Of a stretch of 64,000 nucleotides of DNA, positions 23,842 through 57,644 are shown piece after piece. A model generated the notes under the pieces. It was not told where the DNA came from, searched no databases, and saw only the letters and a list, made by a program, of their open reading frames with translations. Made by a program: the position numbers and the translations under genes. The stretch's first letter is position 1, and every line of letters starts with the position of its first letter. Origin of the DNA: Sulfuricurvum sp. Its GTDB lineage: Bacteria; Campylobacterota; Campylobacteria; Campylobacterales; Sulfurimonadaceae. The DNA is taken from assembly GCA_030692765.1 (NCBI GenBank), contig JAUYUB010000006.1, positions 62,001-126,000 on the forward strand, given 5' to 3'.

Positions 23842-25707
23842 ATGAGCGTCAAAGACTTAAACAAACACATCGAAACACTGTTTACGGAACATAAATCTAA
23901 AAATTGTCTTACTTATGAGGCCATTGTTGAGGCTTTTGATAAGCAACCGACTCTTGCTCAAGCTAAAAATATTTTAAAATTGGCAGAAAAACACAAAACC
24001 TGCCTTTTTACTTCTTCGGAACATGCAAAAATTCTCAATCAGCAAGAAGCGGACGCAAAGCGTGCAGCTCAGATTAAATATATTGAAGAAGCAAGTACAG
24101 ATCAGTTTGACATTCTAAAACAACATGAGCTTTTGGAGTGGTCACGATCGGATTCCCCGGTTCGTATGTATCTGCGTGAAATGGGACAGATTCCTCTTTT
24201 GACCAAAGAAGAAGAGGTTGAGATCTCTAAACGTATGGAGATGGGTGAAGAGATCATTATTGATGCAATTTGTTCTGTCCCGTATCTCATTGAGTTCATC
24301 CTAGATTACAAAGACCCTTTAATTAACCGTGAAAGACGCGTTAAAGAACTCTTCAAAAGTTTTGAAGACGATGCAGAAGAAGATGCTGGTTCGGATGATG
24401 ATTCGGACGATTCAGACGATGAAGAAAACAATGAAAAAGCTCCTTCTGCTAAAGATAAAAAACGTATTGAAAAAGTTATAACCTCCTTTAAAGCGCTCGA
24501 AAAAGCAAAAAAAGACTGGGCAAAAGCAACTGAAAAAATGCTTGATGAACGTCCACTAGAAGAGATGGACTCCGATTACGTCTTCTTCTTTCTAAATGTA
24601 AGTTTTAAGAAAAAAACACTCAAAGATGCATTAATGGATTTGGGGCCAACCTCAAAACTCATCAACGAACTAGTACGTTCTATGGAGACAGCATTACGCA
24701 GTGATGAAGGTTTTGACCGTGAACTAAAACGACTGGAATACAAACTTCCGTTATTCAATGAGCAATTGAAAAAAAATCACATCGTTATTGTTGATAAGAT
24801 TACAGAGCTTACCAAAGAAGAGATCGCCGCCAAAGTTCCGGAAGCTACTATGGTCAGTACCTATATGGAGATCAAAAAACTTATCCAGACCAAAGAAGCG
24901 TCTAAAGGCGGCTTTGATATGGAGCCTGAAAAACTTTCTGATATTTTGGAACAGATCAAACGCGGAAAAAACATTTCCGAAACCTCAAAAACCCGTATGG
25001 CGAAAAGTAACTTGCGTCTCGTTGTTTCCATTGCCAAGCGTTATACTAATCGCGGTCTTCCCTTCCTTGATTTGATTCAAGAAGGAAACATCGGCTTAAT
25101 GAAAGCAGTTGATAAATTCGAATACCAAAAAGGGTATAAATTTTCAACGTATGCTACATGGTGGATTCGTCAGGCTATCAGCCGCGCGATTGCCGACCAG
25201 GCACGTACTATTCGTATCCCGATTCACATGATTGAGACAATCAACCGTATTAATAAGATCATGCGTAAGCATCTCCAGGAACATGGTAAAGAGCCAGATG
25301 TCGAGACCATCGCGGAAGAAGTCGGCCTCTCGGTTGAAAAAGTCAAAAATGTTATTAAAATCACCAAAGAGCCGATTTCTCTCGAAGCTCCTATCGGTAA
25401 TGAGGAAGATGGACGTTTTGGTGACTTCATCGAAGATAAAATGTCACTTTCTCCATCCGATGCAGTTCTCAAAGATGACCTCAAAGTTCAAATCGAAGGT
25501 GTCCTTGAGCAACTTAATGAGCGTGAAAAAGCAGTAATTAAAATGCGCTTTGGAATTATGGATGACGAAAGTGACCGTACTCTCGAAGAGATCGGAAAAG
25601 AGCTCAATGTTACCCGTGAACGTGTTCGTCAGATCGAAAGCAGTGCGATTAAAAAGCTGAAACACCCAAAAGTGGGTCGTAAATTGAAAAACTACATCGA
25701 AGACTAA
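23842..25707 (+). CDS. rpoD: RNA polymerase primary sigma factor RpoD
   Basis: A 621-residue sigma-70. Region 1.1 occupies about residues 1-75, region 1.2 has [21 protein letters not shown] near residue 103 (core VRMYLREMG), followed by an acidic, Asp/Ser-rich non-conserved stretch (residues 175-205). Region 2 has [25 protein letters not shown] near residue 390 and the -10 melting segment [15 protein letters not shown]. Region 4 ends with [20 protein letters not shown], the -35 reading helix, near residue 595. AAGGGAG is 13 bp before the ATG. A further gene starts at the stop codon. Confidence 0.97.
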
Positions 25708-26393
25708 TGACATTCGATCAACAATGGATTGAGTACGACTTTAATCCATTTATCCTTTTTAGCGCTAGCGGTAAAGTCCTCTCACTCAATACGGAGGCTC
25801 AATATCTGCTCGGAGCTGTGGAGCCTTCCGTTATCTATAAGATCGCGATGGCCAATGCCAATTCCACTTTTGGATTCAAGACGACATTCATGGAGCTAGA
25901 GTTCGGCCGTTTCAAATTTTTTGGAATCACCGTAGGCTATGAAGATGAAGAACAAATCGGTATGCGCCTCTATCAACTTCCCTCTTTTCAATTCACCAAG
26001 CAAAAACCAGAGGGAAATTTTGTCAACGTGTATACACTTATTGATTTGTGTATTAGCTCTAATTCGATTGGCTCATCTGTTAAATACATCAAAGAACTTG
26101 ACCCATCAATACCTGAAATACGATTGCAACCCGAGCTTTTCATTAAACTGCTTAATAAAACATACCAGGCATTTAGTGAAAATGAGACGATATTGACGCG
26201 TCTATTTTTCAGAGTCGGTGAACATATCAAATATGAGGGTGAAAAATACTCTCTTTTTGCCATCGAATTCTCTGCGCCTCATCTTAACCGAAAATACACA
26301 TCAGAGCTCACACGGCTCGCAGAAGAAAACAATCTTTACTGCGATATGAGAGAATCAAAAGTCACCGTTAATATACCGATGATCTCTAAATAA
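25707..26393 (+). CDS. Unknown protein coupled to rpoD; PAS-like and degenerate kinase-like regions
   Basis: A 228-residue protein whose ATG overlaps the rpoD stop (TAATG). The first 80 residues read like a small PAS domain (NPFILFSASGKVLSLNTEAQYLLG). Around residues 145-190 the pattern FIKLLNKTYQAFSENETILTRLFFRV resembles the N-box of HATPase-type kinases, but the later glycine boxes that hold ATP are missing. A histidine for autophosphorylation is not seen. It could be a sensor or a sigma-associated regulator; that is inference. It ends 1 bp before the convergent fusion gene. I do not recognise a named family. Confidence 0.6.
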   Translation: MTFDQQWIEYDFNPFILFSASGKVLSLNTEAQYLLGAVEPSVIYKIAMANANSTFGFKTTFMELEFGRFKFFGITVGYEDEEQIGMRLYQLPSFQFTKQKPEGNFVNVYTLIDLCISSNSIGSSVKYIKELDPSIPEIRLQPELFIKLLNKTYQAFSENETILTRLFFRVGEHIKYEGEKYSLFAIEFSAPHLNRKYTSELTRLAEENNLYCDMRESKVTVNIPMISK

Positions 26394-28550
26394 TCATTTA
26401 ATAAACTCTTTCACCGCTTCAAAAATCTCCTCATAGTGTTTCTCATTGAGAATGACATGCTCATTTGCCTTTAGAAGCACTTTTATTTTCTCTTCGCTTT
26501 GTATTGTATTGTAAATCATATCTGCCCCTTTTGGATTTACCACAGGGTCATTGTCCCCTTGAATAATTAACGTTCTTGCTGTGACTTTTTTTAGCAGCGG
26601 ATATGCGTAATCAATCAATTTTTTGAGTTCTCTAACCGATTGTATATGATGTTCGCTGTAGTTAACTTCAGGATTCTCAGGTGTGTCTTGGATGTATTCA
26701 ATTTTGGAATTAATCACCGAAAGCCAGCTGCTGATCACCCCCATCGTAGGAAGTAAATAGTTAAACCGCAGGTCATCAAATTTTATGGCAGTATTAATAC
26801 AAATCAATCCATCCACTTTGTGCTGTTTAGATGCTGCTGCTATAAGCGCAAGTACACCACCTGCTGAAAACCCGCAGAGGTAGAGTCTATGACTAATCAT
26901 TCTCATTGCCGCAAACCCTCGGTTAAAACTGTCAATCCAATGCATGTATGAACTTCCTTTTAGATCTTCGGGAACAGTCCCATGACCTTCCATGCGTATG
27001 CAATAGACATTAACCCCCAAGGAATGAACGAAGTTAGCCAATCCTTCCATCTCTTTGGGTGCAGATTTATAGCCATGAGTGATAACCATCCCAACATCAA
27101 AATGCGGGTTGTACAAAATAAATGGTCTTCCAATGTCTTTTGGTTTACTATGAATAACTGAGTAATAGTGTTGATATGCATAGTCAAAACGTCTCATATC
27201 CTGTTCAAATATCGCATCAAAAACACCCTTGCCTACTTCTTGCAATGAGCGCTTGACTGTATGAGTTAAAAGGCTCTTTAGGTCTCCAAAAAGATCCACC
27301 TCGTTCAACACAACACGCAGTGTATTTTTAAGCCGTACCATCCCAAAGGTATGTTCATCTGCAAGCGCTTCTTTATCTATACGATAACTGCCATCATCAA
27401 GCGGAATTAGAATCTTTTGCTCACATGCTAACGCCAAAACAGTATCAAACATCTCATAAGGCTCATCAATCAAAAGTTTGTAAAAATCACGATGCAGCAT
27501 TCCATGGGTCTTATGTACTTTCAAACATAGAATCTCTTTAACAGACAGAAAAATGACCGCTCGCAAATGAGATAAGCGCAAGGTATCTGTTGGGTAGTTT
27601 TCCAATGCTAAAGCAAATATATGGTCAAAATTTACAAGGGTATTTTTATAGACTTTGTCCATCACCAAGGTAGTGAGTTTATGCCGACTGTACTCAATGA
27701 GAGCATCGTGATCACTTTTTGTATGACCGGTAATATTAAGTGCTTCACGTGCGGTATGTATCTGTTTTTCTATACTGATCGGTGCATCAAGATGAATGTG
27801 CATATGTGCATTGACCAAAAGGTTCCCTTCAACCTCTAGCTCTTCTAAAAACATTTCACTTTTAATCTCTAAAATAGAACCTGCCATCTGAGTAAAGATA
27901 TTTTTGCCCGTGCGTATCGGAAAATAATTGATGCTTACGGGGACAATTTGAGTCGCGACATACGAAAAACCTTCATTCTCTTTGACACCGTATTTCTTTT
28001 TAAATGCATTAACTGTTACTATGTCTCCCTCTTTTTGTGCATGACGGCATGCTTGTTTTTCCAATTCACATTTAAGCGCTAGTACGGCAGATCCCGTTGG
28101 CATAGGATGGGAACCATGTGCATTGTGTATCATAAACTGTTTACCGCTTATAGTCACTTTTTTGTTTTTAAGCATGCTACCCTCTGGATAAATCAACCAA
28201 CTGTTGTTACCCTGCAAAAGGTCCGAGAGAATAATAGTATCTCGATTGATATCTTTGGTTGAGATCGTTCCCAAGGACTCCAAATACTCTTTCAGTTTTG
28301 GCTGAAACAATCCAGAGTCCGCTAAAGATCGGACTTTAATATTAAGTTTTTGATACAGAAAACTAGGGATTAAAAACGTTTCAACACGTGTAAAGTGATT
28401 TGCACAAAACAAGGTAGGACGTGTAAGATCCAAATCGGGATGCACACTGATCGTCAGACTCGAATCTAAGATGTGCCTGACGTATTTAATGAGCTGATGA
28501 GTGGACCCAAAAGAAATTTTTTTGAGTAACAGTTCTTGCCCGGGAGTCAT
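26394..28550 (-). CDS. Acyltransferase-alpha/beta hydrolase fusion
   Basis: A 718-residue two-domain protein. The N-terminal third is a PlsC/LPLAT-type acyltransferase: FCANHFTRVETF near residue 49 (the NHx4D box with Glu for Asp) and IYPEGSMLKNKK near residue 120. After a helical middle region the last 250 residues form an alpha/beta hydrolase with a lysophospholipase-like MEGHGTVP and the triad Ser562 (GFSAGG), Asp668 (GDNDPV) and His698 (NEHVIL). It is the last gene of the beta-oxidation operon, 2 bp after fadE. A lipid-remodelling or acyl-releasing role feeding FadD is likely by context. Confidence 0.75.
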   Translation of the reverse strand: MTPGQELLLKKISFGSTHQLIKYVRHILDSSLTISVHPDLDLTRPTLFCANHFTRVETFLIPSFLYQKLNIKVRSLADSGLFQPKLKEYLESLGTISTKDINRDTIILSDLLQGNNSWLIYPEGSMLKNKKVTISGKQFMIHNAHGSHPMPTGSAVLALKCELEKQACRHAQKEGDIVTVNAFKKKYGVKENEGFSYVATQIVPVSINYFPIRTGKNIFTQMAGSILEIKSEMFLEELEVEGNLLVNAHMHIHLDAPISIEKQIHTAREALNITGHTKSDHDALIEYSRHKLTTLVMDKVYKNTLVNFDHIFALALENYPTDTLRLSHLRAVIFLSVKEILCLKVHKTHGMLHRDFYKLLIDEPYEMFDTVLALACEQKILIPLDDGSYRIDKEALADEHTFGMVRLKNTLRVVLNEVDLFGDLKSLLTHTVKRSLQEVGKGVFDAIFEQDMRRFDYAYQHYYSVIHSKPKDIGRPFILYNPHFDVGMVITHGYKSAPKEMEGLANFVHSLGVNVYCIRMEGHGTVPEDLKGSSYMHWIDSFNRGFAAMRMISHRLYLCGFSAGGVLALIAAASKQHKVDGLICINTAIKFDDLRFNYLLPTMGVISSWLSVINSKIEYIQDTPENPEVNYSEHHIQSVRELKKLIDYAYPLLKKVTARTLIIQGDNDPVVNPKGADMIYNTIQSEEKIKVLLKANEHVILNEKHYEEIFEAVKEFIK

Positions 28551-28552
28551 CG

Positions 28553-30919
28553 CTAGTCTCGCACGAAGGTATTCACATCATAACTGTCAACTTGAACTAC
28601 TTCTTGTTTAAGCGTATACGCTTTTTTCAAGCTTACCCCCTCATCCTGAGTAATCACTGATTTTTCGACCGCTTGTTCTATGAGGAGATCAAAAGGTGCT
28701 TTTGGCAATGTGTGGGCACGTATCGCTTTTTTCATTTTACCAATGATCGGTTTAACCTCATTATGTAACGTGAATGCTTCCTCAAGCGCTGACAATTGCT
28801 TGCCCACAAAAACATCTTTTGTCAAAGCATCGCGCATTTTTCCTTGCGTCAAGATGATTGTAGCCAAGCGATGAAGCTGTACATCATTGGCAGGTTTTCC
28901 CATACGGTTTAAACGCATGTAAAAACGTAGCGGTGCAAATAAAAAGCCACCAAAGAGATTGTGGGCAACATCATCAAACGCTTTTTGTATATTACTCAAA
29001 GCAAAATCACCTACGTAACGCATAAAGATTTCGCTCTCTTTGGAATATCCTTCCTCTTTGTAACGGCGCATGGTTGCCATGAGTAAATAGCTGTACGACA
29101 TTACATCCCCAAATCGCGCGGAGATCATCTCACGCTGCTTAAGTGTCCCCCCAAACATCCCCATAATCATGTCGGTCATGAACGAGAAGGTTGCCGATGT
29201 CCACATTAACTTACGCTCATAATTTCGTGCGATCCCGCTTGATTTTGGAAGATAGATGTATCCTCGAGTCAGACTCAATAATGTCATACGCACCATGTTC
29301 CCCAAGGCAAATCCAATATGAGCGAAAAAGTTTTTGTCAAACTCTCTGGCGTTATGTGCTCCTAATGCTTCAATCTCTTTGTAAGCAAACGGATGACAAC
29401 GAATCACCCCTTGACCAAACTGGATCAATGTACGTGTCATGATATTCGCACCCTCAACCGTGATAGCAATCGGCGCTCCCATATAGGCATGACCGATTAA
29501 GTTACGCTCACCCAAACTGATCCCTGCACCGCCCACGATGTCCATAGCGTCATTGATCGTTTTACGAAATAGCTCTGTTGAGTGGTATTTCATCACGGCA
29601 TTGATAACGGAAGGTTTTTTGCCCTCATCAATCGCCCCAATCGTAAAGATACGTGCGGCATCAATCATGTACGTCATTGCCGCCATGTGTCCCATAACGG
29701 ACTCAATCCCCTCAAAATTACCGATACTCGTTCCAAACTGCTCACGCACGGTTGCATAGGCACCGCAGACTTTGGTACTAAGTTTGATACCGCCTGTACA
29801 CGTTGATGGAAGTGAGATTCCACGACCAACCGCAAGCGACTCCATAAGCATCATCCACCCCTGCCCGATACCATCCATCCCACCGATTACATCATCAATA
29901 TCAATGACAACATCTTTACCCTGAAGCGGTGAATTGACAAACGGTATTCCCAATGGATTATGACGTTTTCCTTGTATAACACCCTCAAGACTTGACTTAA
30001 CTAAGGCGCAGGTAATACCCAGATCATCCCCTTTGCCTAAAATATTATCCGGATCTCTTAGTGTGAATGCCAATCCGATCAGACTCGCTATCGCACCAAG
30101 CGTGATATAACGCTTTTCAAAGTTAAGACGAATTTTTGTTTCCCCGTTCTCTTTGAAAACGATTCCATAAGCACGTATCGACGTTGCATCCGAACCTGCA
30201 AGCGGTTCTGTCAATGCAAAACACGGAATATCGGTACCATTTGCAAGACGTGGAAGGTAATAATCACGCTGTACTTGTGTTCCATAATGAAGCAACAGCT
30301 CTGCTGGCCCAAGTGAATTGGGAACCATAGTGGTAATTGCCAAGGCTTGTGAATGGGTCGCCAGCTTTTGAATAACCGCTGAATGACCCAGTGCCGAGAA
30401 TCCAAGTCCACCGTATTCTTTAGGGACAATCATCCCAAGAAACTTTTTATCTTTGAGATACTGCCATACCTCAGGTGAAAGATCACGATGCTCAGATGTC
30501 TCATAATCATTGGTCATACGACATACAATATCCACTTCATTATTCAAAAAAGCATTCTCTTCAACTGTTAATGATGGGTATGAATCTGTGAGAATGGTAT
30601 TAAAATCAGGACGACCCGAAAAAATCTCACCGTCCATCCATACCGTCCCTGCACGCAGTGCAATTTTTTCTGTTTGAGAAATGGAGGGCATCAGTTTCAA
30701 TTTATCAATGATCCCCATCAGAGGCTTAGAAATCAATGCCGTTCGAATCGGCTCAATAAGTAACAGCGCGTTAATCGCAAGATAGATCGTCACACCCATA
30801 GTATCAGGGCATGTCAGATAAACAAACACCGCCAAAACCGGTGACCAGATGATAAATTTAACACGGTTGTACCATAAAATAAGCACCAAAACTAAAAGTG
30901 TATACAAATAATAATTCAT
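28553..30919 (-). CDS. fadE: Acyl-CoA dehydrogenase FadE
   Basis: A 788-residue membrane-associated acyl-CoA dehydrogenase of the large FadE type (E. coli 814). Residues 1-65 hold two or three hydrophobic segments. The catalytic part includes IVPKEYGGLGFSALGHSAVIQ (core YGGLGFSALGHS), CFALTEPLAGSDATSIRAYG for FAD/substrate near residue 235, and GRGISLPSTCTGGIKLS; GGAGISLGERNLIGHAYMGAPIAITVEGAN holds the base Glu region (VEGAN). It introduces the first double bond in fatty acyl-CoA oxidation. It abuts fadJ with no gap. Confidence 0.95.
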   Translation of the reverse strand: MNYYLYTLLVLVLILWYNRVKFIIWSPVLAVFVYLTCPDTMGVTIYLAINALLLIEPIRTALISKPLMGIIDKLKLMPSISQTEKIALRAGTVWMDGEIFSGRPDFNTILTDSYPSLTVEENAFLNNEVDIVCRMTNDYETSEHRDLSPEVWQYLKDKKFLGMIVPKEYGGLGFSALGHSAVIQKLATHSQALAITTMVPNSLGPAELLLHYGTQVQRDYYLPRLANGTDIPCFALTEPLAGSDATSIRAYGIVFKENGETKIRLNFEKRYITLGAIASLIGLAFTLRDPDNILGKGDDLGITCALVKSSLEGVIQGKRHNPLGIPFVNSPLQGKDVVIDIDDVIGGMDGIGQGWMMLMESLAVGRGISLPSTCTGGIKLSTKVCGAYATVREQFGTSIGNFEGIESVMGHMAAMTYMIDAARIFTIGAIDEGKKPSVINAVMKYHSTELFRKTINDAMDIVGGAGISLGERNLIGHAYMGAPIAITVEGANIMTRTLIQFGQGVIRCHPFAYKEIEALGAHNAREFDKNFFAHIGFALGNMVRMTLLSLTRGYIYLPKSSGIARNYERKLMWTSATFSFMTDMIMGMFGGTLKQREMISARFGDVMSYSYLLMATMRRYKEEGYSKESEIFMRYVGDFALSNIQKAFDDVAHNLFGGFLFAPLRFYMRLNRMGKPANDVQLHRLATIILTQGKMRDALTKDVFVGKQLSALEEAFTLHNEVKPIIGKMKKAIRAHTLPKAPFDLLIEQAVEKSVITQDEGVSLKKAYTLKQEVVQVDSYDVNTFVRD

Positions 30920-33040
30920 TTAAATCCCTTTGTAAAAAGTTGAGCCCGAACGAACCAGCTCTTGCAGTAACGGTGCCGGCTCAAAACGCATACCATGTTT
31001 ATCACGTAAACGCAACAAACTGTGAAATACTTTCTCTAAACCATAGGCATCCGCATATTTTAGTAATCCTCCTCTAAATGGAGGGAATCCGGTTCCCATA
31101 ATCATAGCGACATCCAAATGCTGTGCATTTTTAACAATTCCTTCTGCGAGACAATACGCCGCTTCATTAACCATTATGAGCATCGCACGATCCAAAATCT
31201 CTTCTTCGCTAAAGCGTTTATTTCCCGTTTTAAGAGCTTCAATCTGCGGGTTGAGCTTTTTCTCTTTTCCTTCGTGAATGTAAAACCCTTTGTTGGCTTT
31301 TTTACCCAATAAATGAAGTTCATTGTATGCACGATCCAGAAGGGTGGAGACCTCCATGCGTTCACCATACCCTTGGCTCAATACACTGGCTACTTTATAT
31401 CCCACATCCAATCCTACTGTGTCCGCTAGAACAAAAGGACCCATCGGCATACCAAAATTCTCGATAAGGGCATCGATACGCTCAACACTCTCCCCTTGGT
31501 CCACGATTTTTGCGCATTCATTGATGTACGGAAGCAAAATACGATTGACCAAAAAGCCAGGGCAGTCATTTACCACAATTGGTGTCTTGCCCGCTTTTTT
31601 TGCTAATGCAACAATCGTAGCAATAACCTCCGGTTTTGTCTGTTTAGAGGGGATTATCTCCACTAACGGCATCTGCTCTACTGGGTTAAAGAAGTGCATA
31701 CCCACAAAACGCTCAGGATGTTTCATCTCTTCACATAACATATTGATCGACAATGATGATGTGTTGGTGGCAATAATGGCATCGTCTCTCATCACGGCTT
31801 CTAGGTCTTTGAAGGTTTGCTTTTTAGTCGCAACGTCCTCCACTATCGCTTCAATCGCCAAATCACTGTGGCCAAAAGAGTTCAAATCGGTTCCATAGGA
31901 AATCAGCGAGAGCTTCATGTCCACTTCTCGCGCATTAAGACTGCGTCGCTTTTTCAAAAATTCAAAGGATTGCGCAACATGCTGTAACGTCTGCGCCGCC
32001 TTATCAAAACTTCTCGCATACAGGCGTACTAACAAATCCATTTTGGCAAATAGCCAAACAATGCCGCCACCCATAGCACCGCCGCCAATGACGGAAGTAA
32101 ACCGTATCGGTAAAAGTGCTTCTTTGCCTACTAACTGTTTTTCGTTTTTAACCGCTTCTATGGCGAAATAAACTGAAATCAAATTTTTTGACTCAGGAGT
32201 AACTGCCATTTGCGAGAAGACATTGGCTTCATATTCCAGCGCACGTGTAGGGTCCATACCATTGGTCTTTTTAAAGATGTCGATGACTGCTAAGGGTGCC
32301 GGATATTTGCCCTTGCTCTTTTGCATTACCGTTTTATGCGCGACACTGGTGATTAACCATGGGAAGAGTTTTTCAACCATCGTAAATTGATACCGTTTTT
32401 TGAGAATAGCCTCTCGTGCAACGGGATCTAAAATAGCTTTAGTAAAAGCCTCGAGTTTAAAATCCAAATACCCTTGAGGTACACACGCATCGATCATCCC
32501 CAGCTTGAGTGCTTTAGCACCATTGATGTATTTGGCTCCTAAAATAAGCTCCAGTGCTTTTGAGGGACCGATAAGCGCTTTTAGCGTCTGTGTTCCTCCA
32601 AAACCCGGTATTACCCCTAGATTTGTCTCTGGCAATCCGATTTTGGTTGCTTTGTTTTCTGTAGCAATTCGATAGGTACAACGCAATGCAAGTTCAAATC
32701 CACCCCCCAAACATGCCCCATCAATCACAGCAATCGTAGGAAAAGGGAGATAGGCTATTTTTTCCAAAATTATTTGCCCATGTCTCACTACATCATACGC
32801 CGTATCACAGTTATCCAAAGAACGTATTTCCGTTATGTCCGCACCGGCAATAAAAATATCTTTTTTACTGCTCACAAAACGCAGTACCTTGATTTGTGTA
32901 TTCTTTTTTAATGCATCCAAGTGCCCGTTAAGCTCTTCCATGGATTCATGATTTAAAATATTGACTTTACTGTCTGGAATATCAAATACAAGCGTAGCAA
33001 TTCCCTCATCAACGGTAAGTGTAAAATTATGTGTTTTCAT
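30920..33040 (-). CDS. fadJ: Enoyl-CoA hydratase/3-hydroxyacyl-CoA dehydrogenase FadJ
   Basis: A 706-residue multifunctional enzyme. The start is the ATG of MKTHNFTLTVDEG, which overlaps the fadI stop by 1 bp; a longer frame 48 bp upstream would lie inside fadI. N-terminal crotonase domain: IAGADITEIRS and GACLGGGFELALRC, with catalytic Glu in GLPETNLGVIPGFGGTQ. The dehydrogenase domain has the NAD fold VIGGGAMGGGIVW near residue 314 and the catalytic His in VGMHFFNPVEQMPLVEI. It carries the two middle steps of beta-oxidation. Confidence 0.95.
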   Translation of the reverse strand: MKTHNFTLTVDEGIATLVFDIPDSKVNILNHESMEELNGHLDALKKNTQIKVLRFVSSKKDIFIAGADITEIRSLDNCDTAYDVVRHGQIILEKIAYLPFPTIAVIDGACLGGGFELALRCTYRIATENKATKIGLPETNLGVIPGFGGTQTLKALIGPSKALELILGAKYINGAKALKLGMIDACVPQGYLDFKLEAFTKAILDPVAREAILKKRYQFTMVEKLFPWLITSVAHKTVMQKSKGKYPAPLAVIDIFKKTNGMDPTRALEYEANVFSQMAVTPESKNLISVYFAIEAVKNEKQLVGKEALLPIRFTSVIGGGAMGGGIVWLFAKMDLLVRLYARSFDKAAQTLQHVAQSFEFLKKRRSLNAREVDMKLSLISYGTDLNSFGHSDLAIEAIVEDVATKKQTFKDLEAVMRDDAIIATNTSSLSINMLCEEMKHPERFVGMHFFNPVEQMPLVEIIPSKQTKPEVIATIVALAKKAGKTPIVVNDCPGFLVNRILLPYINECAKIVDQGESVERIDALIENFGMPMGPFVLADTVGLDVGYKVASVLSQGYGERMEVSTLLDRAYNELHLLGKKANKGFYIHEGKEKKLNPQIEALKTGNKRFSEEEILDRAMLIMVNEAAYCLAEGIVKNAQHLDVAMIMGTGFPPFRGGLLKYADAYGLEKVFHSLLRLRDKHGMRFEPAPLLQELVRSGSTFYKGI

Positions 33041-34332
33041 TACGATACCTCCAATATCATTGATGCACCCTGACCACCGCCGATACACAACGTTGCCAAT
33101 CCACGATTTTTATTTTCTTGACGAAGCGCTTTTAATAAATGAATCACTAAACGTGTTCCCGTCATCCCTACCGGATGACCCAGAGCAACAGCCCCTCCAT
33201 GTATATTCAAAATAGTCTCATCAATACTTCCGACTGCTGTTGACTGATTGAGATGCTGTTGGGCATAAGACGCTGATTCAAATGCTTTTAGATTGGCCAA
33301 AATCTGTACTGCAAAAGCCTCATTCATCTCAATAAGTTCCATATCTTTGAGTGTCAAACCTGTTTTTTTGAAAATCTTCGCCGTTGAGTACACAGGACCT
33401 AATCCCATACGACTAGGGTCAAGACCTGCATACGCATAAGAGCTCATGTAACCAAGCGGTTCTAGTCCAAGTTCTTTGGCTTTGCTCTCACTCATCACCA
33501 CCACTGCTGCAGCAGCATCCGAGACTTGAGACGAGTTTCCTGCGGTAACCGTTCCATTTTTACGGTCAAAAAACGGCTGTAATTTACTCAATTTATCAGG
33601 CGTTTGATCGTAACGTATACCATCATCGTCCATCATCACTTTACCGCGTAGGGCATCATACACAATCGGAATAATCTCTTGGGCAAAGATTCCCGCTATT
33701 TGTGCTGCCTGTGCTTTGTTATGACTCATGGAAGCGTAAATATCCTGGGCTTCTCTACTGATACCAAAATCCTGTGCCAAGATCTCTGCGGTCGAGCCCA
33801 TCATCAAGCCATTCGTAGGATCGGTCAATCCCTGCATCAGTCCAATAATAGGTTTTAGAAATGCCGGCCGTAGATGACTGATATTTTTGAGCTTTTCTGA
33901 CACACTGCGAGATTTGAACAACCCCTCAAATACACCCGTCAATGCTGGTGAAAAGAGAAGCGGAATATTACTCATAGACTCAACGCCCCCGCACATATAG
34001 ATCTCGCCTTGACCGCTTAGAATCTTGTCGGTAGCCGTAGTGATCGATTCCATACCCGATGCACAATTACGATGGACAGTATACGCAGGAATACTGGCCC
34101 CAAACCCTGCTTTTAAACCGATAACACGCGCTATATTAGCAGCATGAACCGGTTGGGAAACATTCCCAATGATGATTTCATCGTATCGATCATAGTCAAT
34201 TCCCACACGCAGTGCGAGTTCTTGCACCACATGAGCACCCAGCGTTTCGGCCTGAATATTTTTAAGTAAACCTCCCGACTTGGCGATTGGGGTTCTAATA
34301 CCGTCAATAATAGCTATACGTTCATGTTTCAT
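33040..34332 (-). CDS. fadI: Acetyl-CoA acyltransferase (thiolase) FadI
   Basis: A 430-residue thiolase closing the beta-oxidation cycle. Active-site residues: Cys in VHRNCASGMESI near residue 90 (nucleophile), His in NIHGGAVALGHPVGMTG near residue 385 and Cys in LCIGGGQGASMIL near residue 417. Length matches FadI (436) rather than FadA (387), which pairs well with the FadJ partner. Overlaps fadD by 4 bp. Confidence 0.94.
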   Translation of the reverse strand: MKHERIAIIDGIRTPIAKSGGLLKNIQAETLGAHVVQELALRVGIDYDRYDEIIIGNVSQPVHAANIARVIGLKAGFGASIPAYTVHRNCASGMESITTATDKILSGQGEIYMCGGVESMSNIPLLFSPALTGVFEGLFKSRSVSEKLKNISHLRPAFLKPIIGLMQGLTDPTNGLMMGSTAEILAQDFGISREAQDIYASMSHNKAQAAQIAGIFAQEIIPIVYDALRGKVMMDDDGIRYDQTPDKLSKLQPFFDRKNGTVTAGNSSQVSDAAAAVVVMSESKAKELGLEPLGYMSSYAYAGLDPSRMGLGPVYSTAKIFKKTGLTLKDMELIEMNEAFAVQILANLKAFESASYAQQHLNQSTAVGSIDETILNIHGGAVALGHPVGMTGTRLVIHLLKALRQENKNRGLATLCIGGGQGASMILEVS

Positions 34333-36053
34333 AATTCATTCTCCCTATGGTGTGGATTGTGTGGTTGATACATTGCTTCAATTTCTGTACTAAATTCACT
34401 GTAAACACGATTACGTGAAACTTTCATCGATGGGGTTAGCATATGATTTTCAATGGTTGGTAAGATTTCAATCAGGGTATATTTTTGAATTTTCTCCCAT
34501 GCGTTAAGATGTTTGTTCACTCGATTGATCAAATGAAGCATACGCTCTGTCGTTTTTAAATCATGGATGTAGTCAGTGAAAGGTTCACTACTCATCAGTG
34601 GGTCGAGGAAAATCAATGCAGTAACGTATGGCTTGTTATCTGCAACGATGATCGCATAATCAACCCATTTACTATGCGTCAAATGATGTTCAATATGAAT
34701 CGCTGAGACATACTTACCTGTGGAGGTTTTGAAAAGCTCTTTTTGACGGCTTTTAATAAAAATATATCCTTCATCATCGATCACCGCTAAATCGCCCGTA
34801 TGAAGCCATCCGTTTTGTATGGTTTTGGCGGTTTCCTCAACTTTGTTGTGATAACCGTGCATCACATTGGGACCCTTGACTAAAAGTTCACCCTCAGCGG
34901 AGAGCTTGACCTCTACACTGCTGAGTTTTTTACCACATGAACCGAATCGATATGCGCTGGGAGTATTGACACTCACAACTGGTGAAGTTTCACTCAAACC
35001 GTATCCCTGATACAGCGGGATACCGATATTGACAAAAAATCGCTCGATAGGTGCCGACAACGCAGCCCCACCACTGATCATATACTGCATACGACCACCT
35101 AAAGCTTCGGTGAGCTTAGAATAAACGAGTTTATGGGCGAGCCTATCCAAAAGACTTAACGGTTTATGCACATCCCTGGTATCTGCCAAACTCAATGCCA
35201 ATTTTCCTATGATCCCTTTTATCCCATGGGTATCATTGATTTTATCGTGCATTTTAGTATAGATTTTTTCCAGTAGTCTTGGAACCACCGTCATCACCGT
35301 AGGGCGTATTTCTTTGATAAGATTTCCAACGTTTTTGACATCATCCGCAAAATAAATACTGATACCGTTGGCCAAATAGTATAAAACAACCATCCGCTCA
35401 AAGATATGGGCCAAAGGTAAAAAACTGAGAGCAACTTCATCAGAGGTGATTGGTATGGCTAATTGGACGTCTTTGAGCTGAGAAATGAGGTTTCTATGGG
35501 CTAGCTCAACCCCTTTTGGCTTTCCAGTTGAACCGCTGGTGTAAATAATCGTAGCAACATCATCTTGGGCAACATCAACATCAGGTAACTCAGACGAAAT
35601 CTTTAAAAAAGGATCAAAGTCAATTGCATTTTGTAAATGCGATTGTATGCCCAACGTTACAACGAGTTTCATGCTGTGCAAACTCTCTTCAAGCTGATCA
35701 TACTTTTCTTGCGAAGCTATAAAGACATATTCTATCGCACTATCATTGATCTCATAGTGCAGGTTTTCTTGTGAGATATTGGCAAAAATCGGAACCGATA
35801 CCGCTCCTAGACGCTGCAAAGCAAAATCGATCATCAGCCAAAAAGGGGAAGAGTCAGACACAATCGCGACACTGGTTCCCTTAACTACGCCATGATGGGC
35901 AAAGGAAGCCGCTAAATGATCAACGTGAATAACAAATTCCGCAGATGAAAAACTTTTCCACATGCCGTTATCGAGGTAAGAGAGATAGGTGTGATTATCT
36001 ACGGAGGTTTTGATGTGGTCTAAAAGCTGGGGAAACGTATTAAACGAAAACAT
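34329..36053 (-). CDS. fadD: Long-chain acyl-CoA synthetase FadD-like
   Basis: A 574-residue AMP-forming acyl-CoA ligase that activates fatty acids. The P-loop is IIYTSGSTGKPKGVELAHRN near residue 170 (core YTSGSTGKPKG), the A5 motif is YQGYGLSETSPVVS near residue 345, and the A7 motif is WLHTGDLAVIDDEGYIFIKSRQKE, with HTGDLA near residue 415. The sequence type is the eukaryote-like FAA1/AMP-forming group. It is the first gene of the operon with a TATAAT-like box about 85 bp upstream. No FadR site is seen. Confidence 0.92.
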   Translation of the reverse strand: MFSFNTFPQLLDHIKTSVDNHTYLSYLDNGMWKSFSSAEFVIHVDHLAASFAHHGVVKGTSVAIVSDSSPFWLMIDFALQRLGAVSVPIFANISQENLHYEINDSAIEYVFIASQEKYDQLEESLHSMKLVVTLGIQSHLQNAIDFDPFLKISSELPDVDVAQDDVATIIYTSGSTGKPKGVELAHRNLISQLKDVQLAIPITSDEVALSFLPLAHIFERMVVLYYLANGISIYFADDVKNVGNLIKEIRPTVMTVVPRLLEKIYTKMHDKINDTHGIKGIIGKLALSLADTRDVHKPLSLLDRLAHKLVYSKLTEALGGRMQYMISGGAALSAPIERFFVNIGIPLYQGYGLSETSPVVSVNTPSAYRFGSCGKKLSSVEVKLSAEGELLVKGPNVMHGYHNKVEETAKTIQNGWLHTGDLAVIDDEGYIFIKSRQKELFKTSTGKYVSAIHIEHHLTHSKWVDYAIIVADNKPYVTALIFLDPLMSSEPFTDYIHDLKTTERMLHLINRVNKHLNAWEKIQKYTLIEILPTIENHMLTPSMKVSRNRVYSEFSTEIEAMYQPHNPHHRENEL

Positions 36054-36135
36054 ACAAACTCTTTTAAAACAGGTTAATTAATAACTTTTGTTTATCTTAG
36101 AGTTTTTTAACTTAATTTGAACTTTATTTTAAATA

Positions 36136-36141
36136 ATTATA
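36136..36141 (-). promoter_or_regulatory. Putative -10 box for the beta-oxidation operon
   Basis: TATAAT on the minus strand in TTATATATAATTATT, 83 bp before fadD. The region is so AT-rich that the match alone is weak. Confidence 0.3.
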
Positions 36142-36155
36142 TATAACAGATTATA

Positions 36156-36680
36156 TTAATCAGAAGAGTGACCTATAAACCACTCTTTGGCTATAAGATA
36201 CCCGATAACGATTCCATAGCCTAGCCCTACGAGATAGGCTAAAAGTTGCATCATATGGCTGTTTTGTAAAATGACAAATCCCATGGCGAAAAAAACATAA
36301 GGGATTACACGATAAATCGAAATCAATGCGGAACCATTTTTGACCGTATTTTCAAGAATCGCTTTTTTTTGGAGCTGCTTTTCGGCTTTGATCATCTCTT
36401 TGACGTCTGCTATTTCCATATCCCGTTCATCATCATACAGATCATACGGATCTTCCATCATATCAATCGCGTCTTTATGGTCGCCTATTTCTGCTTCGCC
36501 CACTTTTGAGTGAATCATATTGCGGTACGCATACAGCGATCCCATGGTTATCATGGCGCCAGAGAGCATCGCTACTTCAAAACTAGCGAATGTAGCATCC
36601 GAAATCACTAACAATAAAGCAATGGGCAGATGTAAAAGAACAATAAACAGTGCGGTTCTTTTAATCTTCGTCATCATCAT
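36156..36680 (-). CDS. Membrane protein of unknown function, AtpI-like context
   Basis: A 174-residue protein with two N-terminal transmembrane helices (about residues 8-48), a hydrophilic acidic middle (DHKDAIDMMEDPYDLYDDERDMEI, about 65-95) and two C-terminal helices (about 122-168). The start is one of three successive ATG codons that overlap the GAT codons ending the AtpZ-like gene in another frame. A similar membrane gene follows hemL in Campylobacter, as I recall. Not recognised further; topology suggests both termini face the cytoplasm. Confidence 0.65.
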   Translation of the reverse strand: MMMTKIKRTALFIVLLHLPIALLLVISDATFASFEVAMLSGAMITMGSLYAYRNMIHSKVGEAEIGDHKDAIDMMEDPYDLYDDERDMEIADVKEMIKAEKQLQKKAILENTVKNGSALISIYRVIPYVFFAMGFVILQNSHMMQLLAYLVGLGYGIVIGYLIAKEWFIGHSSD

Positions 36681-36963
36681 CTTTGCCGATGGTTTGCCCC
36701 ATATTGTATCTAGGGTCTTTGGCTAACTTTTCAAATTCTTTGTACTGTTTGCTGTAGGCTTTATAGATATTGACTATGGCAGCCGCAATACCGATAGCCA
36801 CACCTATCCATAACAGCCATCCAATTCCCGTAAGTTTCTTTAGCCCCAAACCGATACCAACACCGATCAAAACCGCCACAACCATCGAAATCCCAAGAGA
36901 GAGGCTCTCTGCTCCCTCAATGATCGGTTTTATTCGTGGTTTTTGCTCTTCTACGTTTTCCAT
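36661..36963 (-). CDS. AtpZ/AtpI-family small membrane protein
   Basis: A 100-residue protein with two hydrophobic helices (about 25-45 and 47-68) around a GLGLKKLTGIGWLLWIG turn, and a highly acidic tail. This matches the AtpZ/AtpI family, which helps assembly of the F-type ATP synthase rotor or magnesium uptake. The atp genes are not in this window. It overlaps hemL by 1 bp (TAATG). Confidence 0.78.
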   Translation of the reverse strand: MENVEEQKPRIKPIIEGAESLSLGISMVVAVLIGVGIGLGLKKLTGIGWLLWIGVAIGIAAAIVNIYKAYSKQYKEFEKLAKDPRYNMGQTIGKDDDDED

Positions 36964-38246
36964 TAAAGTGCTCCAAAAATAGTGTTTGCAGCTTCTATTG
37001 TCTCTTCGATCATAGCATCGGTTGTTGCTGTAGAAATAAATCCGGTTTCAAACTGCGAACAGGCAAAATAAAAACCGGCATCCAGCATCGCCGCATGAAA
37101 TTTTGCAAAACGCTGTGTGTCACTCGTAAGCGCATCTTCGAAATTGCTAACAGTGCTATCACAAAAGAAAAACCCAAACATTGATCCGCGCACATCCGTT
37201 TGTAACGGTATATTATATTTTGCTGCTGCGTCACCAAATCCTTGCATCAACCGTTTTGCTCTGGCTTCGAGTATCCCAAACACTCTTGCGTTTTCACGAA
37301 GCTTTCGTATCGATGCAAGACCTGCGGCCATAGCCACCGGATTACCGCTGAGTGTACCCGCCTGATACACACCGCCCTCAGGTGAGAGACACGCCATGAT
37401 CTCACGACGTCCGCCAAAAGCTCCTACTGGCATTCCACCGCCGATAACTTTGCCCAGTGTTACCAAATCAGATTTGGTTCCTGTCATAGACTCAGCACCA
37501 TGTAAACAGGCACGAAAACCGCTCATAACCTCATCAAAAATCAATAGCGCACCATGTTCATCACATAACGCTCTTAATTGTGCCAAGAAGTCTTTGTCCG
37601 CAGGAACCAGTCCCATGTTCCCCGCGATAGGTTCGATAATAACACACGCGATTCCAGGGCTGTCAATAAAACATTTGCGTACACTATCAATATTGTTATA
37701 TTCCGCTAACAAGGTATGTTTGGTAAAATCAGCCGGTACGCCTGGAGAGCTAGGTGTGCCAAACGTTGCGGCACCCGAACCCGCTTGAACAAGTAATGCA
37801 TCACTGTGTCCGTGATAACATCCCGTAAATTTCACAATATCATCTCGTCCCGTAAATCCGCGTGCAAGACGGATTGCACTCATCACGGCTTCTGTACCGC
37901 TGCTGACAAAACGGACCTTTTCGATCGACTCGTAGATTGATATGATCAACGCTGCAAGTTCACTTTCCGCTTGCGTAGGAGCTCCGAAACTCAACCCGTG
38001 CTTAACCGCTTCAATAACCGCGTTTTCGATACTCTCATCACGATGTCCAAAAATCAATGGACCCCAGCTTTGCACATAATCCACATAACGGTTACCATCA
38101 ATATCTATGAGATACCCACCCTCACCGCTCTCAATAAAACGAGGAATCCCACCAACGCTTTTGAATGCACGTACAGGAGAGTTTACTCCGCCCGGAATGA
38201 GCTCTTGCGCCCTTAAAAATGCTTCTTGTGAATGCTGAATATTCAT
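36963..38246 (-). CDS. hemL: Glutamate-1-semialdehyde 2,1-aminomutase
   Basis: A 427-residue PLP enzyme making 5-aminolevulinate, the haem precursor. Signatures: [15 protein letters not shown] near residue 19, [16 protein letters not shown] near residue 115, the PLP Asp in [13 protein letters not shown] near residue 235, and the Schiff-base Lys in [19 protein letters not shown] near residue 262 (core [14 protein letters not shown]). A TATAAT lies 40 bp upstream on the minus strand. It heads a short operon with the AtpZ-like and membrane proteins. Confidence 0.97.
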
Positions 38247-54056: not shown

Positions 54057-55769
54057 ATGAGTATTCCCATTTATACTTACGATGCAATTATCGTTGGAGC
54101 TGGCCTTGCAGGATGTGCTGCAGCTCGTGAATTACAATCTGCGGGTAAAAAAGTAGCTGTTATTACCAAACTCCATCCTCTTCGTTCTCACTCTGGTGCG
54201 GCTCAAGGCGGAATCAATGCTGCGTTTAGTGACAAAGACAGCGTTGAACTCCATGAGTATGATACGGTCAAGGGATCTGACTATCTTGCAGATCAGGATG
54301 TAGTCGAATTTATGTGCGAAAAGGCTCCTGAAACCGTCCGTTGGGTTGAGAAAATGGGTGCTGTTTTTAGTCGTAATGAAGATGGGACCATCGCACAGCG
54401 TCCTTTTGGCGGACAATCCTCCCCTCGTGCATGTTTTGCAAAAGACCGTACAGGACTTACTCTCCTTCAAACCATGTACGAGCAAGCATTTCGTGTTGGT
54501 GTAGAATTTTGGGACGAATGGTATGTTGCTGATCTTCTCTATGCAGAGGGCAAAGTGTATGGAGTTGCAGCCTATAACATCCGCAACAGCGAGTATGCTA
54601 TATTCAATGCTAAAACGGTTATGTTTGCAACTGGCGGATATGCCAGAGCATTCAAGATCAACTCAAATGCACATGCTAACACTGGTGATGGGCTCTCTCT
54701 CGTAGCACGTCACGGCCTTCCATTGGAAGACATGGAGTTTGTACAATTCCATCCATCAGGACTTTCCGGAAATGGTGTTTTGATCTCTGAAGCCGCTCGC
54801 GGTGAAGGCGGACGTCTTCTCAATTCATTGGGTGAACGTTTTATGGAAAAATATGCACCAAATGCACTTGAACTTGCTTCTCGTGACGTTGTTGCTCGTG
54901 CGATCATTCAAGAAATTCGTGAAGGACGCGGTGTAGGCCCACGTAAAGACGCGGTTTACATCGATCTAGTCCATCTTGGAAAAGAGAAAATCATGGAGCG
55001 TCTGCCTGAGCTTCGTGATCTTGCTATTACTTTTCTAGGCCTTGACATGATCAAAGAGCCTATTTTGATCTCAGCCACTGCTCACTATTCAATGGGTGGA
55101 ATACCGATGAATAAAGACGGTCATGTTCGTAAAAACAATACCGAATACGTCGAAGGTTTCTATGCAGCAGGTGAGTGTTCATGTTCAAGTGTTCACGGTG
55201 CCAACCGATTGGGTGCAAACTCCGTTCTAGAAGCATTGCTGTTCGGCCGATTCGTCGGTAAAACCATGGTCAACGATGTTGACGGTATCGCATTACGTGT
55301 GGCAACACAAGCCGATGCTCAGAGAATGATTGATGAAGTCGAATGGGCATTGACAAACCATGGTCAGGAACACGTTCCAACCCTTCGTGATGAGCTTCAG
55401 CAGTCTATGACTGACAATGCAGGAGTATTTCGTACCAAAGAGACACTAACCACACAAATGACAATCATCGAAGACTTGCGTAAGCGTTATAAAGACATCC
55501 GTGTCAGCGATAAATCAAAAATATTCAACACAGAGTTGCAAGAAGCAATCGAATTTGGTCATATGCTCGATTACTCACTCTTTATCGTAGCCAGTGCACT
55601 TGCTCGTAATGAGAGCCGAGGGGCCCACTTCCGTGAAGATTTTCCAACACGTGATGATGAGAAATTCTTAAAACACACCATGGCATACATGGATGAAAAC
55701 GGCACAATCTCCCTTGATTACATGGATGTCACTCTTGGCAAACATGAAGTCAAAGCTAGAACATACTAA
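54057..55769 (+). CDS. sdhA: Succinate dehydrogenase/fumarate reductase flavoprotein (SdhABE type)
   Basis: A 570-residue flavoprotein. FAD fold IIVGAGLAGCAAARELQSAG near residue 10, the histidine for covalent FAD in RSHSGAAQGGINAAF near residue 43, substrate region FVQFHPSGLSGNGVLISEAARGEGG (core EAARGEGG near residue 246) and catalytic Arg zone HYSMGGIPMN. There is no twin-arginine signal, so unlike periplasmic methylmenaquinol:fumarate reductase it stays inside the cell. It links succinate and fumarate to quinone, or fumarate reduction in a reductive TCA cycle; direction cannot be read from sequence. Confidence 0.93.
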   Translation: MSIPIYTYDAIIVGAGLAGCAAARELQSAGKKVAVITKLHPLRSHSGAAQGGINAAFSDKDSVELHEYDTVKGSDYLADQDVVEFMCEKAPETVRWVEKMGAVFSRNEDGTIAQRPFGGQSSPRACFAKDRTGLTLLQTMYEQAFRVGVEFWDEWYVADLLYAEGKVYGVAAYNIRNSEYAIFNAKTVMFATGGYARAFKINSNAHANTGDGLSLVARHGLPLEDMEFVQFHPSGLSGNGVLISEAARGEGGRLLNSLGERFMEKYAPNALELASRDVVARAIIQEIREGRGVGPRKDAVYIDLVHLGKEKIMERLPELRDLAITFLGLDMIKEPILISATAHYSMGGIPMNKDGHVRKNNTEYVEGFYAAGECSCSSVHGANRLGANSVLEALLFGRFVGKTMVNDVDGIALRVATQADAQRMIDEVEWALTNHGQEHVPTLRDELQQSMTDNAGVFRTKETLTTQMTIIEDLRKRYKDIRVSDKSKIFNTELQEAIEFGHMLDYSLFIVASALARNESRGAHFREDFPTRDDEKFLKHTMAYMDENGTISLDYMDVTLGKHEVKARTY

Positions 55770-55779
55770 GGAGCATCGT

Positions 55780-56757
55780 ATGGACGAAATCAAATCACAA
55801 CAGGTGACCTTTAAACTTTTTAGATTTAATCAAGAAACAGATTATCTTCCGTATTACAATACCTACGTATTAGACATTACTCATGAAGAAGTTATTCTCG
55901 ACGTTCTAAACCGTATCAAGTGGGATCATGATGGATCTCTATCGTATCGCCGAAGCTGCCGTCATGGTATTTGCGGTATTTGTTCGATCAAAGTAAACGG
56001 TAAAGCAATCTTGGCTTGTAAATCACGCCTTTTTGACCTGATTGAAGTTTTCGGTACGGAATTAACGATTGAACCATTAAGTACAAAAAGAGCACTCAAA
56101 GACCTTATTATTGATAAAGAAGATTTCTGGAATAAACACGAGCAAGTTACTCCTTTCCTTGTCAGTGATATTGATGAAAATCCTACTCTTGAAACTCTAG
56201 TTGTCCCTCACGATGCCGAGAAATTACTTGAAGCGGATTATTGTATCCAATGCGGAGCATGTCATTACTCATGTCCTGCATTAGAGATCAATGATCGCTT
56301 TATCGGTCCTGCAGCATTTGCAGCAGCGTTCCGTTTTGCCGCGGATGTACGTGACGATGCTTCATTAGAGCGTCTACATGTAGTTAATGAAGAAGCAGAA
56401 GGTGTTTGGGATTGTGTTAAGTGTATGGAATGTGCCGAAGCGTGTCCAAAAGATGTTAATCCAATCGAAAAGATCACCAAACTGCACAACATGATTTTCC
56501 AAGCAGGAATTGCCAAAGATAATGTTGCAACACGTCACGCCGTTGGCTTTGCCCATTCAATCCAAAAACACGGATTGCTTGATGAGGGTGAACTTGTACG
56601 TTACTCCGAAGGAAACATCGGTGTGCTTAAACACATGCCAGAAGCATTTGAAATGTGGAAGAATGGCAAAATTGTAATGCCGTGGAATATGCCGAAATCT
56701 AAAAATCTTGATGAAGTTAAAAAGCTTATGAAATCTTCATCTACCGTTAAATTCTAG
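55780..56757 (+). CDS. sdhB: Succinate dehydrogenase/fumarate reductase iron-sulfur protein
   Basis: A 325-residue iron-sulfur subunit; the ATG of MDEIKSQQ follows a GGAG site, and longer frames overlap sdhA. [2Fe-2S] site: SCRHGICGICSIKVNGKAILAC near residue 64 (core CRHGICGIC). First [4Fe-4S]: CIQCGACHYSCP near residue 156. The third site reads CVKCMECAEACPKDVNP, with an extra Cys making a CxxCxxCxxxCP pattern; classic enzymes have a [3Fe-4S] here. This extra Cys marks the SdhE-type family. 10 bp after sdhA. Confidence 0.93.
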   Translation: MDEIKSQQVTFKLFRFNQETDYLPYYNTYVLDITHEEVILDVLNRIKWDHDGSLSYRRSCRHGICGICSIKVNGKAILACKSRLFDLIEVFGTELTIEPLSTKRALKDLIIDKEDFWNKHEQVTPFLVSDIDENPTLETLVVPHDAEKLLEADYCIQCGACHYSCPALEINDRFIGPAAFAAAFRFAADVRDDASLERLHVVNEEAEGVWDCVKCMECAEACPKDVNPIEKITKLHNMIFQAGIAKDNVATRHAVGFAHSIQKHGLLDEGELVRYSEGNIGVLKHMPEAFEMWKNGKIVMPWNMPKSKNLDEVKKLMKSSSTVKF

Positions 56758-56765
56758 GAGTCACC

Positions 56766-57644
56766 ATGGAAAAGTTTAGATACGCACTTTATACAGGTTG
56801 TACTGCTCGCGAAAGTACTCCTGAACTTCTTAAATCGACGTTGGCAATTGCTGACAAATTGGGAATTGAACTTGTATTATTGGATGAAGCATCATGTTGC
56901 GGTGCTTCCCACTTACAAGACTATGATGATATGTTATCGTTGGTACTCAACGCTCGCAACATCTGTTATGCAGAGAAACTTGGGCTTACCATGGTTACAA
57001 TCTGTAATACATGTCAGCTAAACACAGCGATGACGAAACATCGTTTAGATACCAATCCTGAGCTCAAAGCAAAAGTAAATGAAAAGCTTGCCGAAGTAGG
57101 TCTTGAGTACAAAGGGACATCTGAAGTAACCCACTTTTTATACGCGATTATTCAAGACTACGGCTTGGAAAACCTCTCTAAAAAGGTAAGTGTTCCTCTC
57201 AGCAAGTTTAACATTGCACCGTTTTACGGATGTCATAACATTCGTCCATCAGAATTGCAAAACCTCTCAAACGGCGGTGAAAATCCTTATAATCCTACAT
57301 CACTTGATGATCTTATCATCGCGTGCGGTGGTAATAATGTTGATTACGATGCTAAAAATAAATGTTGCGGATTCCATGCAGAGCTTCAGTCTCCGCGTAC
57401 TGCGGCTGTATTGACAGGAAATGCCCTCTCAGGCGCAATCGATGCCAATGCAGACTGGATGGTAACCCCTTGCCCTCTGTGTCATCTAAAACTTGATGTT
57501 CAACACCATAGTGCTTCCAAAGCAATTGGCCGTGAAGTAAAACTTCCGGTTCTCCATATGCCACAAATGGTAGGACTTGCACTTGGTTGTACTCCTGCTG
57601 AACTTGGTTTACAACACCACGTAACTAAAGTCAATTTCGTTTAA
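56766..57644 (+). CDS. sdhE: CCG-domain membrane-side subunit SdhE
   Basis: A 292-residue protein with two cysteine-rich CCG domains: SCCGASHLQDYDD near residue 43 and KCCGFHAELQSPRTAA near residue 199, plus CNTCQLNT, YGCHNIRPS and TPCPLCHLKLDV. It resembles heterodisulfide reductase subunit B. In this enzyme class it replaces the usual haem-bearing membrane anchors. It lacks clear transmembrane helices, so the attachment is likely by amphipathic helices. 8 bp after sdhB; a hairpin lies behind it. Confidence 0.92.
   Translation: MEKFRYALYTGCTARESTPELLKSTLAIADKLGIELVLLDEASCCGASHLQDYDDMLSLVLNARNICYAEKLGLTMVTICNTCQLNTAMTKHRLDTNPELKAKVNEKLAEVGLEYKGTSEVTHFLYAIIQDYGLENLSKKVSVPLSKFNIAPFYGCHNIRPSELQNLSNGGENPYNPTSLDDLIIACGGNNVDYDAKNKCCGFHAELQSPRTAAVLTGNALSGAIDANADWMVTPCPLCHLKLDVQHHSASKAIGREVKLPVLHMPQMVGLALGCTPAELGLQHHVTKVNFV

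Follow-up and report, generated by a model that had tools for sequence, protein, structure and literature searches.

How can a bacterium degrade long-chain fatty acids if it lacks the electron-transfer flavoprotein (ETF), the protein to which acyl-coenzyme A (CoA) dehydrogenases normally hand their electrons? The question is raised by a five-gene operon in a 64,000-nucleotide stretch of the genome of a sulfur-oxidising Sulfuricurvum sp. (GenBank assembly GCA_030692765.1, contig JAUYUB010000006.1, positions 62,001 to 126,000; hereafter the window). The operon lies on the minus strand at positions 26394-36053, in the order fadD-fadI-fadJ-fadE-acyltransferase/hydrolase. Its host genome (G000; 2.15 Mb in 28 contigs, 99.9% complete) gave no match to the ETF models PF00766 or PF01012. 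We propose that the operon encodes a working, ETF-free β-oxidation pathway for long-chain fatty acids, and that it represents a cassette that is old in the Campylobacterota and evolves as one unit. Predicted as it is from sequence, we give this reading a probability of roughly three in four.

The five genes and their predicted products

The first-pass annotation of this DNA described a tightly packed operon for β-oxidation in a member of the Campylobacterota. All five genes are indeed present and intact, with spacings of -4, -1, 0 and 2 bases along the operon, and the host is a Sulfuricurvum of the family Sulfurimonadaceae. The genes are as follows.

34329..36053, minus strand: fadD, long-chain acyl-CoA synthetase, 574 amino acids, the first gene of the operon (PF00501 at 240 bits, PF23562; motifs YTSGSTGKPKG and GWLHTGD)
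33040..34332, minus strand: fadI, 3-ketoacyl-CoA thiolase, 430 amino acids, overlapping fadD by 4 bases (Thiolase_N/C)
30920..33040, minus strand: fadJ, enoyl-CoA hydratase / 3-hydroxyacyl-CoA dehydrogenase, 706 amino acids from the ATG at 33040, alternative start GTG at 33088 (ECH_1, 3HCDH_N, 3HCDH)
28553..30919, minus strand: fadE, large-type acyl-CoA dehydrogenase, 788 amino acids (PF09317, PF02771, PF02770, PF00441)
26394..28550, minus strand: fused PlsC-type acyltransferase and C-terminal monoacylglycerol-lipase-like alpha/beta hydrolase (PF12146; motifs and fold)

The spacings take the ATG at 33040 as the fadJ start. This codon, which overlaps the fadI stop codon by a single base, is the most likely start, in preference to the GTG at 33088. 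FadD, FadI and FadJ show the expected motifs, and the ratio of nonsynonymous to synonymous divergence (dN/dS) between the operon genes and those of sister species is 0.03-0.08. Intact genes, conserved motifs and low dN/dS therefore point to a real operon under purifying selection.

Family membership and conserved active sites suggest the course of the pathway. FadD would convert fatty acids to acyl-CoA, FadE would oxidise acyl-CoA to enoyl-CoA, FadJ would hydrate the enoyl-CoA and then carry out the NAD-dependent oxidation, and FadI would split off acetyl-CoA. FadE has the clearest assignment. It matches the ACDH_C domain PF09317 at 242.7 bits over the full model (1-284 of 284) and NF007000 at 932 bits, with hydrophobic N-terminal helices at about residues 2-54, a catalytic core at about 110-510 and ACDH_C at 506-780. 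The predicted catalytic glutamate, E489 in TVEGAN, is invariant across 51 aligned sequences. An AlphaFold model (predicted local distance difference test score, pLDDT, 88) folds residues 2-54 into three helices (pLDDT 86-91), and its fold matches VLCAD/ACAD9 with Z scores of 31-32. Hydrophobic N-terminal stretches recur in the FadE of nearly all operon bearers. In one genome (G503, L157) this part amounts to about one helix, between the anchored and anchorless forms.

FadI matches TIGR01930 at 441 bits, carries the motifs HRNCASG at residue 87, GHPVGMTG and CIGGGQG, and is the sole thiolase found in the genome (a single Thiolase_C match). Its best solved relative is the E. coli-type FadI (8bnu/8bnr), and that of FadJ is the FadIJ alpha subunit (8bnu/6ysv). 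FadJ combines hydratase and dehydrogenase domains and its gene adjoins that of a FadI-type thiolase, the arrangement expected of a FadIJ trifunctional complex. The first-pass annotation had assigned FadE, FadI and FadJ to the large proteobacterial type. This holds for FadE, and for FadI and FadJ at the level of the family; by their profile scores the latter two fall outside the curated NCBI equivalogs, FadJ reaching 665 bits against the NF008363 cut-off of 869 and FadI 418 against the NF006516 cut-off of 560.

The last gene encodes the most unusual product. Hydrolase_4 (PF12146) was found in 27/27 homologues of the fused protein, and the acyltransferase domain PF01553 in 26/27, going undetected in the window's own copy. 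Two motifs of the N-terminal half, NHFTRxE at 51-57 (F in at least 90%) and PEG at 122-124, are conserved in all homologues, and the acyltransferase motif is invariantly H-x4-E, in contrast to the usual PlsC/LPLAT H-x4-D. The C-terminal half has an alpha/beta hydrolase fold with a Ser-Asp-His triad, of which D668 and H698 occur in all homologues and S562 in 26 of the 27. It superimposes on the Bacillus monoacylglycerol lipase (3rm3, 4ke8) with a Z score of 32.8 and a root-mean-square deviation of 1.7 over 239 aligned residues at 27% identity, a result that speaks for the lipase half alone, which dominated the structural search. Triad positions are conserved between the two proteins, although here the lipase is fused to an acyltransferase domain and a helical middle part. 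Its fold and motifs suggest release of fatty acids from glycerolipids (mono- or lysolipids) as the most likely function of the hydrolase half. The acyltransferase half would handle part of the acyl groups and may re-esterify fatty acids.

Plasmid-borne homologues of the fused gene were considered and rejected, as the matches listed span the hydrolase half alone at 24-29% identity. Several neighbours of the cassette in other genomes were also recorded. A gene for a putative YiiD_C-type thioesterase lies 3′ of the fused gene (L026:6843-7283) in a genome of family f7, which we take to be Arcobacteraceae, and genes of the same size occupy that position in two further f7 loci (L028:6939-7382, L035:6676-7116), a possible sixth cassette gene. 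In G333, an FAD-dependent oxidoreductase resembling glycerol-3-phosphate dehydrogenase is encoded divergently from the cassette (L043:15176-16270), which would fit glycerolipid breakdown.

Distribution and descent of the cassette

Large-type FadE (PF09317 above the cut-off) occurs in 23 of the 397 Campylobacterota genomes searched, across four families; most of the phylum lacks it. In this respect the first-pass annotation, which had noted an apparent lack of the pathway in Helicobacter pylori and Campylobacter jejuni, is supported. FadE was found in 30 of 228 Sulfurimonadaceae genomes and in 4 of 41 Sulfuricurvum genomes; the three closest relatives of the window's FadE (89-92%) come from Sulfuricurvum metagenome-assembled genomes (MAGs). 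A profile search found the full-length fused protein in exactly the same 23 of the 397 genomes. This makes the fused gene an obligate component of the cassette rather than a chance neighbour. The order of the five genes is kept in nearly all bearers examined, across four families, the exceptions being two genomes of family f1 without fadD beside fadI and one of family f4 in which fadE and the fused gene are separated from the rest.

Phylogenies indicate how the cassette has travelled. In a FadE tree of 55 sequences, with branch support from the Shimodaira-Hasegawa-like approximate likelihood ratio test (SH-aLRT), all campylobacterotan FadEs form one clade (SH-aLRT 98), beside single Rickettsiales and Bdellovibrionota sequences and away from the Gammaproteobacteria. 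Within this clade f7, f4 and Sulfurimonadaceae are separate, all but one f1 sequence fall together, and G333, a member of the Sulfurimonadaceae, groups with f4. The FadI, FadJ and fused-protein trees return the same groups, including the placement of G333 with f4. The cassette thus evolves, and passes between genomes, as one unit, and a single transfer of it is visible on these trees, from one campylobacterotan family to another, with G333 as recipient and its copy grouping with f4. An older origin of the cassette within the Campylobacterota is likely, after which it would usually have been lost and at times moved between families. Separately, a MAG labelled 'Rickettsia typhi', a label that looks doubtful, carries a FadE 52% identical to that of the window on a 17.7 kb contig (L073).

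The surroundings of the operon are relevant to its history within Sulfuricurvum.

23842..26393, plus strand: left flank, rpoD and a conserved 228-amino-acid gene, convergent with the 3′ end of the operon
36054..36155, minus strand: intergenic region 5′ of fadD, the likely promoter region, with a weak sigma-70-like -10 element and blocks conserved in an alignment of three Sulfuricurvum species
36156..38246, minus strand: right flank, a 174-amino-acid membrane protein, an AtpI-like 100-amino-acid protein and hemL

In the region before fadD, a promoter consensus scan gave an overall score not above chance. No clear inverted repeat that might serve as an operator was noticed there in the three-species alignment, and no regulator was identified. 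Further along the window (54057-57641) lie genes for flavoprotein, Fe-S and CCG-domain subunits that resemble a non-classical succinate dehydrogenase or methylmenaquinol fumarate reductase.

In operon-free sister species the left and right flanks abut directly at the same locus. A tree of three flanking genes mixes bearers and non-bearers in one nine-species Sulfuricurvum subclade, and its supported branches force at least three changes. Presence of the operon in the ancestor of this subclade, at a single site, followed by loss at least three times, fits these data best. Alternatively, recombination among relatives may have inserted the operon repeatedly at this identical site.

The first-pass annotation also suggested that the operon was perhaps gained by transfer, and proposed gene phylogenies, a comparison of codon use with the flanks and a survey of related genomes, all of which were carried out (the trees for FadE, FadI, FadJ and the fused protein). 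A recent acquisition by Sulfuricurvum from Proteobacteria would explain why 37 of the 41 Sulfuricurvum genomes and most of the phylum lack the operon, and the large type of FadE is best known from Gammaproteobacteria. However, the single campylobacterotan FadE clade has family structure, and the nearest relatives of the window's FadE are other Sulfurimonadaceae. The codon use of all five genes lies within 1 standard deviation of the window mean, operon and flanking genes have diverged from sister species to a similar degree (synonymous divergence, dS, mostly 0.7-1.7), and no mobile-element genes were found at the operon borders. On the trees, codon use and equal divergence we rejected a recent gain from outside the phylum, which we consider highly improbable.

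Electron acceptor and role of the pathway

The description of the pathway as complete proved true of its four core steps, all of which are present, but not of its connections, as the genome has no match for ETF or isocitrate lyase. By PF01012, 47 of the 50 operon bearers are without an ETF match, and PF00766 (ETF_alpha) agrees on the 22 bearers run. ETF is also missing from all 14 non-bearers tested (0/14), and its absence is therefore the usual state of the phylum. The models were positive in 10 of 14 control genomes, and 14 of 15 FadE-bearing Gammaproteobacteria have ETF.

The ETF-positive bearers are G333, G310 and G510, the last with a fused ETF. G333 has genes for a homologue of the ETF-quinone oxidoreductase (ETF-QO) and for a fused, single-chain ETF among those for malate dehydrogenase, fumarase, succinyl-CoA synthetase and a 2-oxoacid oxidoreductase (L138:5156-8770); its FadE is anchorless, and its fused lipase carries Ala in place of Ser562. 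G310 (f7) carries what appears to be a separate butyrate-type cluster, with a small acyl-CoA dehydrogenase, a CCG Fe-S membrane protein, etfAB, an hbd-like gene, CoA-transferase subunits and a thiolase (L139:4060-14026).

No match to the isocitrate lyase model PF00463, the mark of a glyoxylate shunt, was found in G000, and no full-length copy in the 38 bearers examined. Acetyl-CoA therefore probably enters via tricarboxylic acid (TCA) enzymes or reductive carboxylation. The latter would run through the organism's own reductive TCA cycle, the cycle used by such autotrophic bacteria. Matches in Arcobacteraceae (290-340 amino acids, covering model positions 150-257, about a fifth of the model) were set aside as probable methylisocitrate lyases.

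Where, then, do the electrons of FadE go? Our best guess is the quinone pool, reached directly or through a partner. We tentatively extend this to large-type FadE in general, which would be independent of ETF and feed the quinone pool itself or via a partner, the campylobacterotan cassette with its obligate fused gene being a self-contained version; we hold this at somewhat below even odds. For E. coli, a review states that no ETF essential to growth on fatty acids is known (PMC9329746), and no ETF partner of FadE has been identified (PMC9329746, PMC11495604). A narrower proposal casts the hydrophobic N-terminus of FadE as a membrane anchor that takes the place of ETF, electrons passing straight from FadE to quinone. 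Almost every ETF-free bearer has a FadE with such a hydrophobic N-terminus, modelled as three helices, direct quinone reduction has been discussed as a possibility for E. coli FadE (PMC11495604), and in G333, which encodes ETF together with an ETF-QO homologue, the anchor has been lost. Yet G500 (100% complete) and G526 have neither anchor nor ETF, G510 and G310 have both, and gammaproteobacterial FadEs are anchored even though their genomes have ETF, which leaves the anchor proposal rather doubtful. A strict tie between anchor loss and ETF presence, suggested by G333, accordingly failed on the survey of the whole family. FadE might instead donate its electrons to oxygen, as an oxidase that forms H2O2, or use a soluble carrier such as ferredoxin or another flavoprotein. 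This would account for genomes with neither ETF nor anchor, and H2O2 production by E. coli FadE has been reported (PMC11495604). No acyl-CoA oxidase family appears among the matches listed, however, and organisms of this kind respire nitrate or low oxygen, a poor setting for an oxidase, making such a route unlikely.

The purpose of the pathway can be questioned in the same way. Its main role might be turnover of the cell's own membrane lipids rather than use of external fatty acids, as the obligate link to a lipase/acyltransferase would suggest. Against this, a FadL-family porin is encoded elsewhere in G000 (G000:C18), and each of the four Sulfuricurvum bearers has one (in a single case only a fragment where a contig ends), compared with one of the four operon-free close relatives searched, although these numbers are small. 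Sporadic loss also marks the function as dispensable, as expected for an optional substrate. Membrane turnover is thus a distinct possibility, short of being probable. The enzymes could conceivably run in reverse and lengthen acyl chains, since thiolase and FadJ catalyse reversible reactions. But FadE-type dehydrogenases are oxidative in known systems, the locus has no trans-enoyl-CoA reductase or bifurcating ETF complex, and FadD and the lipase indicate breakdown. We regard reversal as extremely improbable.

Several observations weigh against an old, ETF-free pathway for fatty-acid degradation. Gaps in draft genomes can mimic absence of ETF, yet it is also missing from 35 of the 37 bearers with completeness of 90% or more and contamination of 5% or less. 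FadE is anchorless in G333, G500 and G526, of which one genome has ETF, and the anchor is thus not a strict ETF substitute. The FadL-family porin is absent from the Arcobacteraceae bearers, which favours membrane turnover and led us to reject FadL as a required partner. Finally, the losses inferred within Sulfuricurvum rest on a tree of just three flanking genes.

Known systems and significance

The same four core enzymes operate in E. coli, where FadE is likewise of the large type with an N-terminal hydrophobic region and ACDH_C. In that species fadD, fadE and fadIJ are scattered on the genome, whereas here they form one operon that includes the fused acyltransferase/lipase. E. coli also has ETF homologues and a glyoxylate shunt, neither of which was found in G000 by the models used. 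In mycobacteria and mitochondria, acyl-CoA dehydrogenases likewise feed respiration, but through ETF and EtfD/ETF-QO, in contrast to the 47 of 50 bearers that have no ETF. Closer to hand, fatty-acid oxidation has been reported for Arcobacteraceae clade C of the same phylum (PMC11265409), and f7 carries the same cassette as Sulfuricurvum. The available portion of that report presents a metabolic map based on marker genes, in which the fused gene and ETF go unmentioned and the Sulfurimonadaceae are not covered. In the open-licence literature we found no report of a β-oxidation operon in Sulfuricurvum or Sulfurimonas. The pathway is thus known in part from the Campylobacterota, and within the portions of the literature available to us we came across no account of how the cassette is built, of its obligate fused gene or of the lack of ETF.

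The cassette would show which campylobacterotans, among those regarded as autotrophic or microaerophilic, are able to use lipids. It also brings into view an uncharacterised fusion of acyltransferase and lipase, always accompanied by FadE in the 397 genomes searched. In E. coli, several ETF homologues complicate the question of the FadE acceptor. Bearers without ETF represent a natural test and, if our reading is true, can reveal the electron acceptor of FadE.

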